From: Alphaproteobacteria bacterium
GTDB lineage: Bacteria; Pseudomonadota; Alphaproteobacteria; TMED109
Length of the DNA: 64,000 bases
Direction of reading: 5' to 3'
NCBI GenBank assembly: GCA_022819905.1
Contig: JAJEGJ010000095.1
Span: 1-64,000 of the forward strand
A model generated the notes under the pieces. It searched no databases and was not told the origin of the DNA. It worked only from the letters and a program-made list of their open reading frames with translations. Both the position numbers and the translations under genes were made by a program. Below are positions 2,871 to 6,328 of this stretch, one piece after another (within the stretch, counting starts at the first letter, position 1; the number at the start of each line of letters is the position of its first letter).

Positions 2871-3347
2871 GGCCAGCGCCTCCCGGAAGTCAGCGAGATT
2901 GCGGGGCTCGTGATGGCCGAGCCACAGTCCGGTGTTCGGCGGCACGCTTCCGGTTTGCGGGAGTTCGTCCGCGGCGAGTTCGCGGGCGTCTGATGATCGG
3001 AACAGGCGCCATCAGGCAATCAAGTGGGATTGCCGGGGCCGGGACTTCGCAGGACGATCACGCGTCGTCAGACGGACGTCCCGGTTGAAGCCCGTGATGA
3101 GGTACCGCGTCTAGTCAGGACGCACGCACCGCGAGAGCAGTCTCATGCGAACGCACACCCCACGCATTGATAGTGCCGTTCGGCGTTGCTGTTTGCCGTT
3201 GTCGAAGATGATGGAAAGGTTCCTGGAATCAGTGCCTTAGGTAACTCTCCGCTCGGTCCCGGTGGCGGGGTCTTCCTCGTGCAAACGCCGCCGTGACCGC
3301 TTCCTATATTGACCCCCGGTCGCGCGGCCCCGACAAGGAGCCGCCCC
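2871..3347. other. Intergenic DNA before the integrase remnant
   Basis: About 480 bases lie between the J-domain gene and the integrase fragment. No ORF with recognisable family features is seen on either strand, and I found no tRNA that could be an intact attachment site. A minus-strand frame running out of the J-domain gene reads as protein-like over the first 100 bases but matches nothing I know. The base composition is less GC-biased than in the neighbouring genes. Confidence 0.5.
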
Positions 3348-3946
3348 ATGGCCGAACCCCGTTCCCGCTCACCGTCCTTCGCCCGGCGGATCGCTGCGGC
3401 CCGGCCCCGCGAGAAGAAGTACGACGTCTGGGACGATGCAATCTCCAGGCTGGGTGTGTGCATCTATCCCTCCGGCACCCGGTCCTTTTGCTGGCGCTCA
3501 CCGGGTGCCCGCGCAGCGAAGTGCTCGACCGGCGCTGGCGCGACATCGGCGGCGACGCCATGAAGTTGCGCGATTCCAAGACTGGACCGCACATCGCCGC
3601 GCTGCCCGGCGCGCGCGACCCGGACGCGTTCCTGTTCCCGCACTACGCCGAAGGGCGCGGGCAGTCCAGTCTCATCGCGTGCTGGTGCGCGGTCTGCACC
3701 GATGCGAAGCTCGACAGGCTGCGGCTGCACGACCTGCGTCACACCATGGCCAGCCAGGCCGTGATGGCCGGCGAGAACCTGCCCCAGGTCGGCAGGCTGC
3801 TCGGGCACCGGCGGCATCGCACGACGGCCGGCTACGCGCACCTGGCCGACGGCCACCTCGCCGAAGCGGCGGAGAAGGTCGGAACAATCATTGCGAATGC
3901 GATGGCGGATGCTGGCAGCGCTTCATCCGTCAACGCGGGGGAGTGA
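3348..3946 (+). pseudogene. Decayed tyrosine recombinase (phage-type integrase)
   Basis: Two integrase pieces lie in different frames. From the ATG at 3348, about 49 codons give the usual N-terminal arm region (REKKYDVWDDAISRLGV, YPSGTRSF). From about 3482 the next frame gives the catalytic domain: LLLALTGCPRSEVLDRRW with the first catalytic Arg, RDSKTGPH, the HxxR motif in LHDLRHTMAS, then LLGHRRHRTTAGYAHL with the final His and the Tyr nucleophile. The whole core-binding domain between them is missing, and the stretch after SKTGPH also looks shortened. All catalytic residues remain, but the protein cannot be made intact. It abuts the mercury module and is probably the relic of the element that delivered it. 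Confidence 0.85.
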
Positions 3947-3982
3947 TGTTCGGTTACAGCCTCGCGCCTCCGACCGCCAGCG

Positions 3983-4201
3983 TCACCCGGCAGTGCCGAC
4001 TTGCACCGGCGGACACGGCACGGTCGCGTAGGAACAGAACACGCAGCAGTCGCCGGGCTTGGGCTTCAGAACCGCCCCGCAGTGATTGCAGTCGTAGAAC
4101 CACTGGCAGGCGTCGGTCGGCATCGTCTCCGTCTCGGAGTGACCGCACGCCGGACAGGTGATGGTTGTCTCCAGTACTACCGATGCCTTCTGCGTCGCCA
4201 T
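3983..4201 (-). CDS. GDCCVxC domain-containing small protein
   Basis: This 72-residue protein is very rich in cysteine. It has TCPACGHSE, CNHCGAV and the family signature GDCCVFCSYATVPCPP near the C-terminus. The signature defines the GDCCVxC domain family, some members of which carry selenocysteine at the variable position of the motif; here it is an ordinary Cys. Members are commonly found beside merT/merF-type genes, as here, where it overlaps the 3' end of merF by 25 bases. The CxxC pairs suggest binding of a soft metal such as Hg(II), which is inference. No signal peptide is present, so it probably acts in the cytoplasm. The stop lies about 35 bases from the integrase remnant. Confidence 0.85.
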   Translation of the reverse strand: MATQKASVVLETTITCPACGHSETETMPTDACQWFYDCNHCGAVLKPKPGDCCVFCSYATVPCPPVQVGTAG

Positions 4202-4381
4202 ATCGCGTACCCCGTGACAGCAAGAAAGACCAGCAGCGCCGACAGCCGAATCGGGTCCAGATATCCGGCGTAGGCCGAAAGCCCGAAGGCCGCGAGGAGC
4301 CATACGAGAACCGGCGTGAAGCAGCACAGCGCCGCCACCGCGGAACCGGCAATGCCGACCCCCAGGGAGCTTGTCCCTCAA
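4177..4381 (-). pseudogene. merF: Mercury transporter MerF, apparent +1 frameshift near the start
   Basis: The frame ending at 4177 reads VGIAGSAVAALCCFTPVL, then LSAYAGYLDPIRLSALL and a basic tail (WRRRRHR). This is MerF, with two membrane helices and the vicinal Cys pair that carries Hg(II) inward. That frame has no good start codon. The sensible start is the TTG at 4381, which overlaps the merT stop and begins MRDKL, but it is one base out of frame with the rest. Removing one C from the run at about codon 6 would restore a normal MerF of about 67 residues. It is therefore either a recent frameshift, a sequence error, or a protein begun at a rare CTG codon just downstream. All other features of the family are intact. 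Confidence 0.7.
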
Positions 4382-4764
4382 CGCGTCGCGCTCCACACGT
4401 CCATCATTATGCGCGCCGCGTCTCCCTCCCATACCGGCGAAGAGGCCGCGACGACGAAGGACAGGGACGCGAATGCCGCCAGCACCACCGCGCCGGGCTT
4501 CCGCACCCCGCAGCGCGAACGTCTGATGAGACGGACCCATGCCCAGAGAAGAACCAGACCGACCGCGACCAGTATCGCCGACCGGTAGGCGACGAACGGC
4601 CCCAGCACGGCAAGCCATGCGCCGCCGAGCCCGACAATCGACAACCCGATGGGCAGGACGCAGCACGAAGCGGAAAGCAGCGCCAGCAGCGCGGCAAGCC
4701 CGACGACGGCTCCTCGCGGACGACCGTCCCAGGCGGCGACGAGTGAAACGATTCTTGCGTTCAT
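4378..4764 (-). CDS. merT: Mercuric transport protein MerT
   Basis: This is a 128-residue inner-membrane protein with three hydrophobic helices. The first carries the vicinal cysteines of the family (SASCCVLPIGLSIVGLGG AWLA), which accept Hg(II) from the periplasm. A second helix (AILVAVGLVLLWAWVRLI) is followed by a cytoplasmic loop with a single Cys (RRSRCGVRK) where typical MerT has a pair. A third helix follows. The ATG at 4764 is 8 bases from the -10 element of a MerR-type promoter. It is the first gene of the leftward merT-merF-GDCCVxC unit, divergent from merR. No merP or merA is present in the window, so the imported ion must be handled elsewhere or by the GDCCVxC protein. Confidence 0.85.
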   Translation of the reverse strand: MNARIVSLVAAWDGRPRGAVVGLAALLALLSASCCVLPIGLSIVGLGGAWLAVLGPFVAYRSAILVAVGLVLLWAWVRLIRRSRCGVRKPGAVVLAAFASLSFVVAASSPVWEGDAARIMMDVWSATR

Positions 4765-4771
4765 GAGCGCG

Positions 4772-4802
4772 CTTATACATCCTGTAGCCGCTACAGAAGC
4801 AA
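4772..4802 (-). promoter_or_regulatory. MerR-type promoter and operator for merT
   Basis: Read on the minus strand this is TTGCTT (-35), a 19-base spacer and TATAAG (-10). The spacer contains the perfect dyad CTGTAGC-G-GCTACAG at 4782-4796. An over-long 19-base spacer with a central dyad is the hallmark of promoters untwisted by metal-bound MerR-family activators. It lies 8 bases before the merT ATG and 18 bases before the merR start, so it should serve both divergent genes. Confidence 0.85.
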
Positions 4803-4814
4803 GAGGCCATAACG

Positions 4815-5213
4815 ATGCGCCCGATCGGAGCCGCTTCAACGATGAGCGGCGTGAACATCGAGACCATCCGCTATTACGAGCGCGAAGGAATCGTTCCCCG
4901 CGCGGAGCGGACACCGTCGGGCCGCAGGCTCTACGGCGACGCTGACATCGCGCGTCTGCGGTTCGTCAAACGCTGCCGCGACCTCGGGTTCCCAATTCCG
5001 GACATCCGCACGCTGCTCGACCTGTCAGCGGGCAACGGCGCGCCGTGTGCGGATGTCAAGGCACTGGGCGAGCGGCACCTGCGCGGCGTAAGGCGGAAGC
5101 TCGACGAGCTTGGGAAGCTGGAGCGCGCTCTTGCCGAACTGGTCAGGCGATGCGATGCCGGCCGGACCGATTGCCCGATGTTGGAAAGACTTCTCGCGGA
5201 CTCCGACGTGTAA
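4815..5213 (+). CDS. merR: MerR-family metal-responsive regulator (MerR-like)
   Basis: This 132-residue regulator has the MerR winged helix at its N-terminus (GVNIETIRYYEREGI, PSGRRLYGDADIARLRFVKR), a dimerisation helix at about residues 85-115, and three cysteines placed as in mercury MerR: one in GAPCADV before the helix and two in RCDAGRTDCPM after it. In MerR these bind Hg(II) across the dimer. The ATG at 4815 fits the family start; a second ATG at 4842 would remove part of the first DNA-binding helix. It is divergent from merT across a MerR-type promoter. The three-Cys pattern and the transport genes favour Hg(II), but a Cd/Pb-type sensor cannot be ruled out. Confidence 0.85.
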   Translation: MRPIGAASTMSGVNIETIRYYEREGIVPRAERTPSGRRLYGDADIARLRFVKRCRDLGFPIPDIRTLLDLSAGNGAPCADVKALGERHLRGVRRKLDELGKLERALAELVRRCDAGRTDCPMLERLLADSDV

Positions 5214-5233
5214 ACCTCCCGCGTCGCGCACTT

Positions 5234-5253
5234 GCCGGCACAGTTGTGCCGGC
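5234..5253 (+). terminator. Hairpin after merR
   Basis: An inverted repeat GCCGGCACA-GT-TGTGCCGGC begins 21 bases after the merR stop. It can form an 8-base GC-rich stem with a 4-base loop. No T-run follows, so it may be a weak or factor-aided terminator, or a protein-binding dyad. Confidence 0.45.
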
Positions 5254-6328
5254 ACCACTGTCTGCGGCTCTGCCGGCATCGCTGCACGTGATGACGGACA
5301 TGGCCCGGGCGCTCCTGAAGTTCGCGGTGCGCGCCGAACCGTTCGATCCCGCCGACATGTCGCCGCTCGGAACCGCCCGCCAAGGCCGTGCCCCGGCTGC
5401 TTCACGCGGCCCCATCGGAGGAGTGTCGAATCCCCCCGCCAGAGGTGCGCTTGCATGGTCCCGGCCACCATTGGGCAACTTGCCACCCCCGCACCGCCAG
5501 AGGGCGCGGAACACCACCACTATTCCATTCTTCGCGCTGAGCCGTTGAGCAACATGACTTCAGGTCCATACAAGGGCTTCTGGAAGGACATGCGGTCGGC
5601 AGGATTTGTGGTTGATCAGCCCGGGTTCCCGCTATCCCTGTTTTCCGATCCCGGGCAACGGGACGCGGTCACTGCGCATCTGACCGTGTGCGCGTCGAGT
5701 TCCATTGATCCGGAGTCCGTTTCAGGCCAATGGAATAAGGGAAACGGGGACCTCCGGCACAGCGGCAGCCTGACGGCGACCTGCTACTAAGACCCGACCC
5801 CGGAAGGTGATTTTGCCGGCTTGGACACCTTTTGCGGGAACAGTGAGGATGCGATTGAGCTTGGTGGCGACACGACGGCTGAGCCTTGGGGGTTCCGCGA
5901 AGCCCCGGCGTCCGAGATCAGTACGACCGCAGAAACCATGGTCGACCGCGCCATTGTCCCTACTGGCGGGAATGGAGAGGCGATCGTGGCAACATCTCCG
6001 GCAGGCACCCGCCGGCATGTGAAGAACAGCGACCACGGCAACGGATTTATCGAAGTGTGGGTTTATGAGTACCTTGAATAAGGCTCGATCCGGTGGCGTC
6101 AGAGGCTCGCGTCCCGCGACCCGCCTGCGTTGCCGCCGTGCGGACATGAACGTAGGCGGCTGCGCTCCGGGGACTGTGTACCGCCGAAGCGCGGCGCCGT
6201 TGTCTGCACGAGGTCAATCCGGTTGTCGTATCTCTGGCGCAGCCATCGGCATCTGATAAAAGAACCGCTCTCTGTCTCGAGGCGGGAACATTGTGACCGC
6301 TCGTGTTTTTTGAACCATGACCGATCGC
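5254..6328. other. Gene-poor accessory DNA, nothing recognised
   Basis: About 1.1 kb lies between merR and the hydrolase operon. The composition is visibly less GC-rich than in the flanking genes. Two short plus-strand frames are open: 5554-5790 (78 codons, ATG, beginning MTSGPYKGFWKDM) and 5821-6081 (86 codons, TTG). Neither has a clear ribosome binding site, domain or family match that I recognise. They may be chance ORFs or worn remains of the mobile element represented by the integrase fragment. No tRNA, terminal repeat or transposase signature was found. Confidence 0.4.

Follow-up and report, generated by a model that had tools for sequence, protein, structure and literature searches.

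A GDCCVxC domain protein beside mercury importers as a candidate replacement for MerA in a recurrent reductase-free mer module

Genes and features of the locus

The window, that is, the whole stretch of 64,000 nucleotides analysed here, comes from an alphaproteobacterial assembly (contig JAJEGJ010000095.1) and contains a compact mer locus with the following features.

3293-3943, plus strand: tyrosine recombinase remnant; the C-terminal part alone matches PF00589 (35.6 bits over residues 131-186)
3983-4201, minus strand: GDCCVxC domain protein (P0001), 72 aa; NF041374 106.6 bits, cut-off 40
4180-4368, minus strand: merF, frameshifted near its 5' end; NF033565 80.2 bits (cut-off 50), PF11431 56.9 bits
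4378-4764, minus strand: merT, 128 aa; PF02411 30.3 bits, slightly under the cut-off of 32.9
4772-4802, minus strand: MerR-type promoter/operator, TTGCTT, 19-bp spacer CTGTAGCGGCTACAGGATG with a dyad, TATAAG; read by eye
4815-5213, plus strand: merR (P0004), 132 aa, divergent from merT, with the three-Cys Hg-binding pattern

The order of transcription on the minus strand is MerT, frameshifted MerF and GDCCVxC protein. A preliminary description made from the letters of the DNA had listed merT, a damaged merF, a GDCCVxC protein and merR, with neither merA nor merP, and the analysis confirms this gene set; merR at 4815-5213 lies outside positions 3983-4764, to which the locus had been assigned there. 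Residues 13-68 of the GDCCVxC protein align to positions 2-57 of the 58 in NF041374, making the match near full-length. MerT has a CC pair in its first helix and a single Cys further along the chain, and by eye it belongs to the subfamily found at loci L108, L136, L137, L140, L153, L160, L170 and L179, of which L108 has such a protein beside merF and merA.

The merF match spans positions 2-58 of the 59 in NF033565, with the start in another frame; the remainder after the frameshift is open, includes the CC pair and overlaps the start of the GDCCVxC gene. Two loci with the same gene order, on an Agrobacterium plasmid (L022) and in Roseovarius (L136), have an unbroken merF whose beginning overlaps the stop of merT. 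The window retains this start, but the frame shifts a few codons later, so that the expected first residues and those after them lie in different frames. An error in sequencing or assembly could also account for this shift. Of the 12 MerF genes beside GDCCVxC in the class sample described below, 3 are broken, the frameshifted one of the window included; the two others have in-frame TAG codons, at L057 (genome G114) and L067 (G286). The window GDCCVxC protein furthermore lacks the C-terminal CC tail present in 130 of 175 homologues. Since merF is broken and this tail is missing, the window copy may be decaying. As a mark of importer linkage the CC tail was rejected, for no association was seen (p 0.75).

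Broken merF genes, in the window as well as at L057 and L067, would also suit a mer operon that has lost merA and persists as a relic or selfish passenger, with GDCCVxC doing nothing on mercury. We consider this rather improbable and return to it with the plasmid loci.

The recombinase remnant adjoining the module suggests past mobility and arrival on a mobile element. No long inverted repeats flank the locus between 2600 and 7000, and hence no transposon ends were found there. A near-search of plasmids with window positions 2900-6300 returned three records, each covering at most 5% of the query, and PHROGs gave no match for GDCCVxC, MerT or MerF.

Search for MerA and MerP in the window genome

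The window assembly (G000) comprises 3.6 Mb in 123 contigs and is 96.31% complete. All 34 MerA candidates in it were scored and none exceeds the cut-off of 454.45 bits. The best four score 301-363 bits; two of them are dihydrolipoyl dehydrogenases, and the others are a glutathione reductase and a generic FAD oxidoreductase. None of these paralogues ends in a Cys pair. No HMA domain (PF00403) was found in the assembly at E<=0.01, where the control was positive in 14 of 14 genomes, and therefore MerP is absent as well. The absence of merA and merP is strong rather than absolute, given 123 contigs and 96.31% completeness. One GDCCVxC gene over the cut-off is present. The MerB profile matched nothing in the assembly, nor did it match anywhere in its control. 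The finding that by the preliminary description would undo its reading, namely merA and merP in an ordinary mer operon at another place in the genome, was looked for; no MerA over the cut-off and no HMA domain turned up. A second mer operon was accordingly rejected, the MerA-like matches being other oxidoreductases.

These results bear on the idea that the module is an accessory importer feeding a MerA encoded elsewhere in the cell. With no MerA over the cut-off, this is already refuted for the window assembly, barring a merA in the missing ~4% or on an unbinned plasmid.

Cysteines and predicted fold of the GDCCVxC protein

The window protein has nine cysteines: C16, C19, C32, C38, C41, C52, C53, C56 and C63. 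Each is kept in 174-175 of the 175 homologues (133 after removal of near-copies), a count that is unbiased for C16, C19, C38, C41 and C63, the search pattern having fixed C32, C52, C53 and C56. Two CxxC pairs (C16/C19 and C38/C41) suggest a zinc ribbon, and the protein is accordingly predicted to be one; C32 or Sec32, C52, C53, C56 and C63 would be further conserved thiols beyond the predicted ribbon.

The structure model has a pLDDT of 83. Zinc-ribbon Pfam models match some members weakly, the best of them 39 of 132 at E<=0.05, and Foldseek returned no match for the model at E<=0.001. A second fold comparison gave chiefly zinc-ribbon and zinc-finger chains (MCM, ribosomal, LysW, ZitP), with weak scores up to Z 2.9. 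Among solved structures searched by sequence, the best was 1qyp, named RNA polymerase II (E 0.0047).

The codon for residue 32 is TGA in two genomes, G284 (L086) and G209 (L093), both of which have SelB over the cut-off of 242 bits (467 and 448 bits, respectively). Residue 32 is therefore likely to be reactive, and the '(seleno)' label of NF041374 fits these TGA-bearing members. At both loci the TGA-bearing gene overlaps one which by eye resembles moaE. Hairpins after the TGA of these two loci come from folding without a control and do not count as evidence here. A third TGA-bearing match, in G138, may be a pseudogene; SelB in that genome stays below the cut-off. The window gene is the Cys form with no in-frame TGA, and SelB in its genome gives a partial match of 192 bits against the cut-off of 242. 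In open-licence PMC papers the name GDCCVxC was not found and 'GDCCV' occurs in unrelated senses; the mer papers, in the portions available, likewise show no mention of it.

MerA and GDCCVxC beside MerT and MerF

A sample of 289 genomes of the window's class was surveyed, with the best five MerA candidates per genome scored. GDCCVxC is over the cut-off in 47 genomes and MerA in 25; MerT occurs in 27 and MerF in 31, both at E<=1e-5. The MerT/MerF genes form 48 clusters, and within a reach of 5 kb these have MerA in 25 cases, GDCCVxC in 17, neither in six and both in none. The mutual exclusion has a Fisher p of 2.4e-8, a test that treats clusters as independent while the genomes are related. It stays at p 1e-7 after removal of the window and of G030, whose MerT is 2.5 kb away and on the opposite strand. 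The co-occurrence count proposed in the preliminary description supports it: MerT/MerF often have GDCCVxC as a partner under an Hg-type MerR, and beside these importers MerA and GDCCVxC are mutually exclusive. Sixteen of the 17 GDCCVxC-linked loci were fetched, five of them with less than 5 kb on one side owing to contig ends.

We also scanned 51 fetched GDCCVxC loci (49 from the class sample and two from relatives) directly with a MerA profile built here. None contains a MerA with its Cys tail, whereas the control was positive in 25 of 26 MerA loci. Four distant relatives without the tail were seen, at L057, L066, L072 and L087. The one at L057 (4593-5939, in G114) is a flavoprotein gene beginning 10 bases after the GDCCVxC stop in a merT-merF-GDCCVxC operon. 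It scores best as glutathione-reductase-like (309 bits, cut-off 480), reaches 290 bits as MerA (cut-off 454) and has no Cys tail. This MerA relative is a near-exception to the exclusion, and it is possible that it serves GDCCVxC as a redox or hand-on partner. Its close family occurs near GDCCVxC at two of the 195 loci scanned, L057 and L149, the latter in Brevundimonas and 2.8 kb from GDCCVxC.

The same survey weighs on the accessory-importer idea at large. Genomes G114 and G116 do hold both module types at separate loci, as a second importer set serving MerA would predict. But MerA over the cut-off, anywhere in the genome, is found in only two of the 17 genomes with GDCCVxC beside MerT/MerF (at another locus), against 25 of all 289, with the best five candidates per genome scored. 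Feeding of a distant MerA is therefore very improbable as the general explanation.

Regulators, operators and trees

TIGR02051 is the best match of the window MerR, at 111.3 bits and under the equivalog cut-off of 150.85. The protein has the three-Cys Hg-binding pattern (APCADVK ... RCDAGRTDCPML), whose cysteines we take to be C82, C117 and C126 in Tn501 numbering. By script the pattern is present in 50 of 55 GDCCVxC-linked and 12 of 15 merA-linked MerRs; the five GDCCVxC-linked ones that do not match are two truncated open reading frames and three in which a different residue follows the last Cys. Between merR and merT, TTGCTT and TATAAG enclose the 19-bp spacer with the dyad CTGTAG-CGG-CTACAG. 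In a scan of 25 loci, counted by eye and without a shuffled control, the CTGTAGnnnCTACAG core at such spacing was found at 11 of 21 GDCCVxC-linked and three of four merA-linked loci (L110, L122 and L124), and four further GDCCVxC-linked loci have another dyad. From its cysteines and operator we infer that the window MerR is an Hg-type sensor which would switch on the divergent operon.

The MerR tree has 69 rows, of which 54 are GDCCVxC-linked and 15 MerA-linked. On it the cargo labels need six changes, at least four of them forced by starred branches, as compared to 13.8 in shuffles. Cargo is clustered, yet it has switched several times. The window MerR falls in a starred group of 17 rows, 16 of which are GDCCVxC-linked and one MerA-linked. 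The MerF tree needs nine changes, of which starred branches force one.

A C-terminal Cys pair is present in five of 17 MerA-linked MerF proteins as compared to none of 24 GDCCVxC-linked ones (p 0.008). Trimming to 90 residues removed the pair from one more MerA-linked MerF, and the count leaves out the MerF-like matches at L109, L115 and L124, the loci with neither gene nearby, and L137 and L140, near-copies among 14 short MerF proteins. The five cases all lie in one part of the tree and are therefore not independent; the proposal that GDCCVxC replaces this Cys pair was accordingly dropped to a hint.

Other contexts of GDCCVxC

GDCCVxC also occurs away from Mer importers. In the class sample, 34 of 51 loci have no MerT or MerF within 5 kb. 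In the window's genus the gene was found in two of seven genomes searched, five of the six others being without it; the remaining one (L100 in G001) has a solitary copy, 81-83% identical, with no MerT, MerF or MerR within 5 kb. P-type ATPases lie near GDCCVxC at L076, L082, L083, L092, L096 and L152 (by motif or eye) and at L180 (by Pfam). Other neighbours are an SBF-family transporter (L162), ThiS (L191) and, by eye, SseA-like genes (L085 and L098). On an Emticicia plasmid (L025, 3133-5204) GDCCVxC directly follows a glutaredoxin-flavoprotein oxidoreductase fusion and a thioredoxin family gene.

These contexts, together with the MoaE-like gene at the TGA-bearing loci, argue for a general thiol, sulfur and soft-metal zinc-ribbon protein, a chaperone, buffer or redox partner, which several systems have recruited, mer modules among them, and which is no dedicated Hg acceptor. 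Yet the commonest neighbour families within 3 kb are MerR (16 loci), MerF (13) and MerT (10), followed by the short-chain dehydrogenase superfamily with seven (shadow open reading frames set aside by eye), and the P-type ATPase links come down to one genus (g130) and two Halothiobacillus loci. A general role also leaves unexplained why MerA is excluded beside the same importers. We therefore consider a purely general role unlikely; the contexts nevertheless leave room for a wider part of GDCCVxC in soft-metal or sulfur chemistry.

Two loci, L056 and L063, encode between the MerR gene and GDCCVxC a membrane protein that is about 131 aa long and bears the motif RCGRLHC. The one tested had no Pfam match, and it is possible that this protein is a new soft-metal transporter.

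Named genomes, viral contigs and plasmids

A second sample comprises 134 loci, on contigs many of which end before 5 kb. Among the best 80 named-genome matches listed, which were ranked by similarity to the query, are biased in this respect and may overlap the unnamed sample, 53 have a same-strand MerT or MerF at most 1.5 kb away and 45 have MerR within 5 kb, while a MerA with its Cys tail is found within 5 kb of none (L187 not assessable). Fifty-three of these best 80 have 3 kb on both sides, and 35 of the 53 have MerT/MerF. The MerA scan of this set was sensitive, as it caught the tail-less relative at L149 (269 bits). For contigs of the viral collection, 17 of 54 have an adjoining MerT/MerF and none has a MerA with Cys tail within 5 kb (L255 not assessable).

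Ten plasmid regions were compared. Six have a Mer importer beside GDCCVxC, including those of Salinibacter (MerT), Hymenobacter (ArsR, MerTP) and Sulfitobacter (MerR, MerF), and four do not (Emticicia, Arthrobacter, P. aeruginosa pP9Me1 and Sulfuricystis); MerA is present in none of the ten. A 122-aa plasmid gene annotated 'mercuric reductase' is MerT-like. At two marine loci (L145 and L164) MerR, MerC and GDCCVxC are consecutive on one strand, and MerC can thus serve as the importer of a GDCCVxC module.

In Pseudomonadota, Bacteroidota and Rhodothermota alike, the merA-free order contains a GDCCVxC protein that has retained its cysteines. Relics of broken operons would hardly all retain the same replacement gene, and the relic explanation is therefore disfavoured in spite of the damaged merF genes.

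Tn5563 and its published mercury phenotype

The Tn5563 mer locus occurs on Pseudomonas and enterobacterial plasmids. The copy in plasmid pAMBL1 (L024, 4788-11040) is an element of 6253 bp with 39-bp inverted repeats. It contains merR, merT and merP, and a GDCCVxC gene lies between merP and tnpA. A 6122-base stretch of this element is present to at least 80% in 180 plasmid records. The published length of Tn5563a is also 6253 bp (PMC4447125). From this equal length and the near-identity of the Tn5563 copies, we infer that Tn5563a carries the GDCCVxC gene. Of the mer genes, the publications name merR, merT and merP only in the passages available. In such passages the Tn5563 mer locus is called defective and incomplete (PMC4785139), only part of an operon (PMC4133298) or partial, with Tn5563a given as a deletion derivative of Tn5044 (PMC4447125), and it is elsewhere counted as mercury resistance (PMC9537497).

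The one phenotype that turned up in print is a mixed one, reported in PMC4447125, where Tn5563a was placed in 15 hosts (13 isolates and two laboratory strains). With it the Hg MIC rose in two Pseudomonas strains and fell by a factor of two or more in six of the 15; with a complete mer module it rose in 11 (PMC4447125). To judge from these results, the module confers no stand-alone resistance in most hosts. The preliminary description had warned that import of Hg(II) without a reductase would be harmful, and the lowered MICs agree with harm from such uptake (PMC4447125). The phenotype as reported there fits an acceptor of limited capacity or one needing a host partner, and it fits a harmful importer too; the L057 flavoprotein and the glutaredoxin-flavoprotein fusion at L025 hint at a host partner for the acceptor.

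Both disfavoured explanations find something in these reports. The authors credit the raised MIC in the two strains to a possible chromosomal merA (PMC4447125), as accessory import would have it, and a locus termed defective (PMC4785139) or partial that lowers the Hg MIC in six hosts (PMC4447125) resembles a relic. On the other side, the Tn5563 MerR groups with the GDCCVxC-linked MerRs of L194, L206 and L253 (92% SH-aLRT, not starred), as expected of an old module, but 54 of the 69 tree rows are GDCCVxC-linked.

Proposed role of the GDCCVxC protein

We put the chance at roughly one half that GDCCVxC replaces MerA as the cytosolic acceptor of Hg(II) in a recurrent reductase-free mer module. Such a module would comprise merR, at least one Mer-type importer (MerT, MerF, MerC or MerTP), in some cases MerP, and GDCCVxC where MerA would otherwise be. 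MerR, to judge from its cysteines and operator, would sense Hg(II) and turn on the divergent operon, and MerT and MerF would carry Hg(II) over the inner membrane, as is established for these families. GDCCVxC would then accept Hg(II) on the cytosolic side by thiol exchange and might, as a guess, hold it and/or pass it to thiol-disulfide enzymes of the host. The acceptor reading draws on the exclusion of MerA, on cargo switches that have occurred several times under a single type of regulator, and on the many thiols of the protein. The window locus is probably a decaying member of this module.

A broader proposition, to which we give somewhat less than even chances on the sequence comparisons, is that there may be a second, reductase-free class of mer loci in which GDCCVxC has been swapped with MerA several times under the same MerR switch, the Tn5563 locus, which many clinical and environmental plasmids carry, being an intact member with one overlooked gene. 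The preliminary description had taken the GDCCVxC protein for an uncharacterised mercury handler. Its frequent partnership with MerT/MerF under an Hg-type MerR speaks for the handling of mercury; as to its novelty, it belongs to an already named and widespread NCBIfam family.

How cells that release Hg(II) via MerB without MerA cope has been raised as an open question, and in the part of that paper available alternative mechanisms are proposed and said to be testable (PMC8261052). A conserved gene in the place of MerA beside Hg importers extends this question to imported Hg(II), and in a form that can be tested. If the proposed role is true, the annotation of 'defective' plasmid mer loci and the genome-based prediction of Hg resistance would change. 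Counts of merT/merF that ignore merA or GDCCVxC would mix two systems with possibly opposite fates of Hg, volatilised or retained. As the arrangement recurs on plasmids and in further bacteria, it suggests that imported mercury can be handled in a second way which has been overlooked.

Comparison with known systems

LysW and other zinc-ribbon carriers or scaffolds have a similar predicted ribbon (3wwl, Z 2.1; 5eio, Z 2.2), but the fold scores are too weak for kinship, and LysW carries amino-acid intermediates, not metals. The window copy matches NF041374, the GDCCVxC domain-containing (seleno)protein, a model whose name gives no function.

Tn5563 and Tn5563a resemble the window in having merR divergent from the importer genes and GDCCVxC, and in having no merA. 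They differ in carrying merP instead of merF and in lying inside a Tn3-family transposon.

With the classical mer operon (Tn501, Tn21 and Tn5053 type) the window shares an Hg-type MerR, an operator spacer in the range of 19-20 bp and MerF, together with a MerT whose profile match lies slightly under the cut-off. In comparison to it, the window MerT carries a single Cys apart from its CC pair, and the tail of the window MerF is without a Cys pair; where the classical operon has MerA and MerP, the window has GDCCVxC instead.
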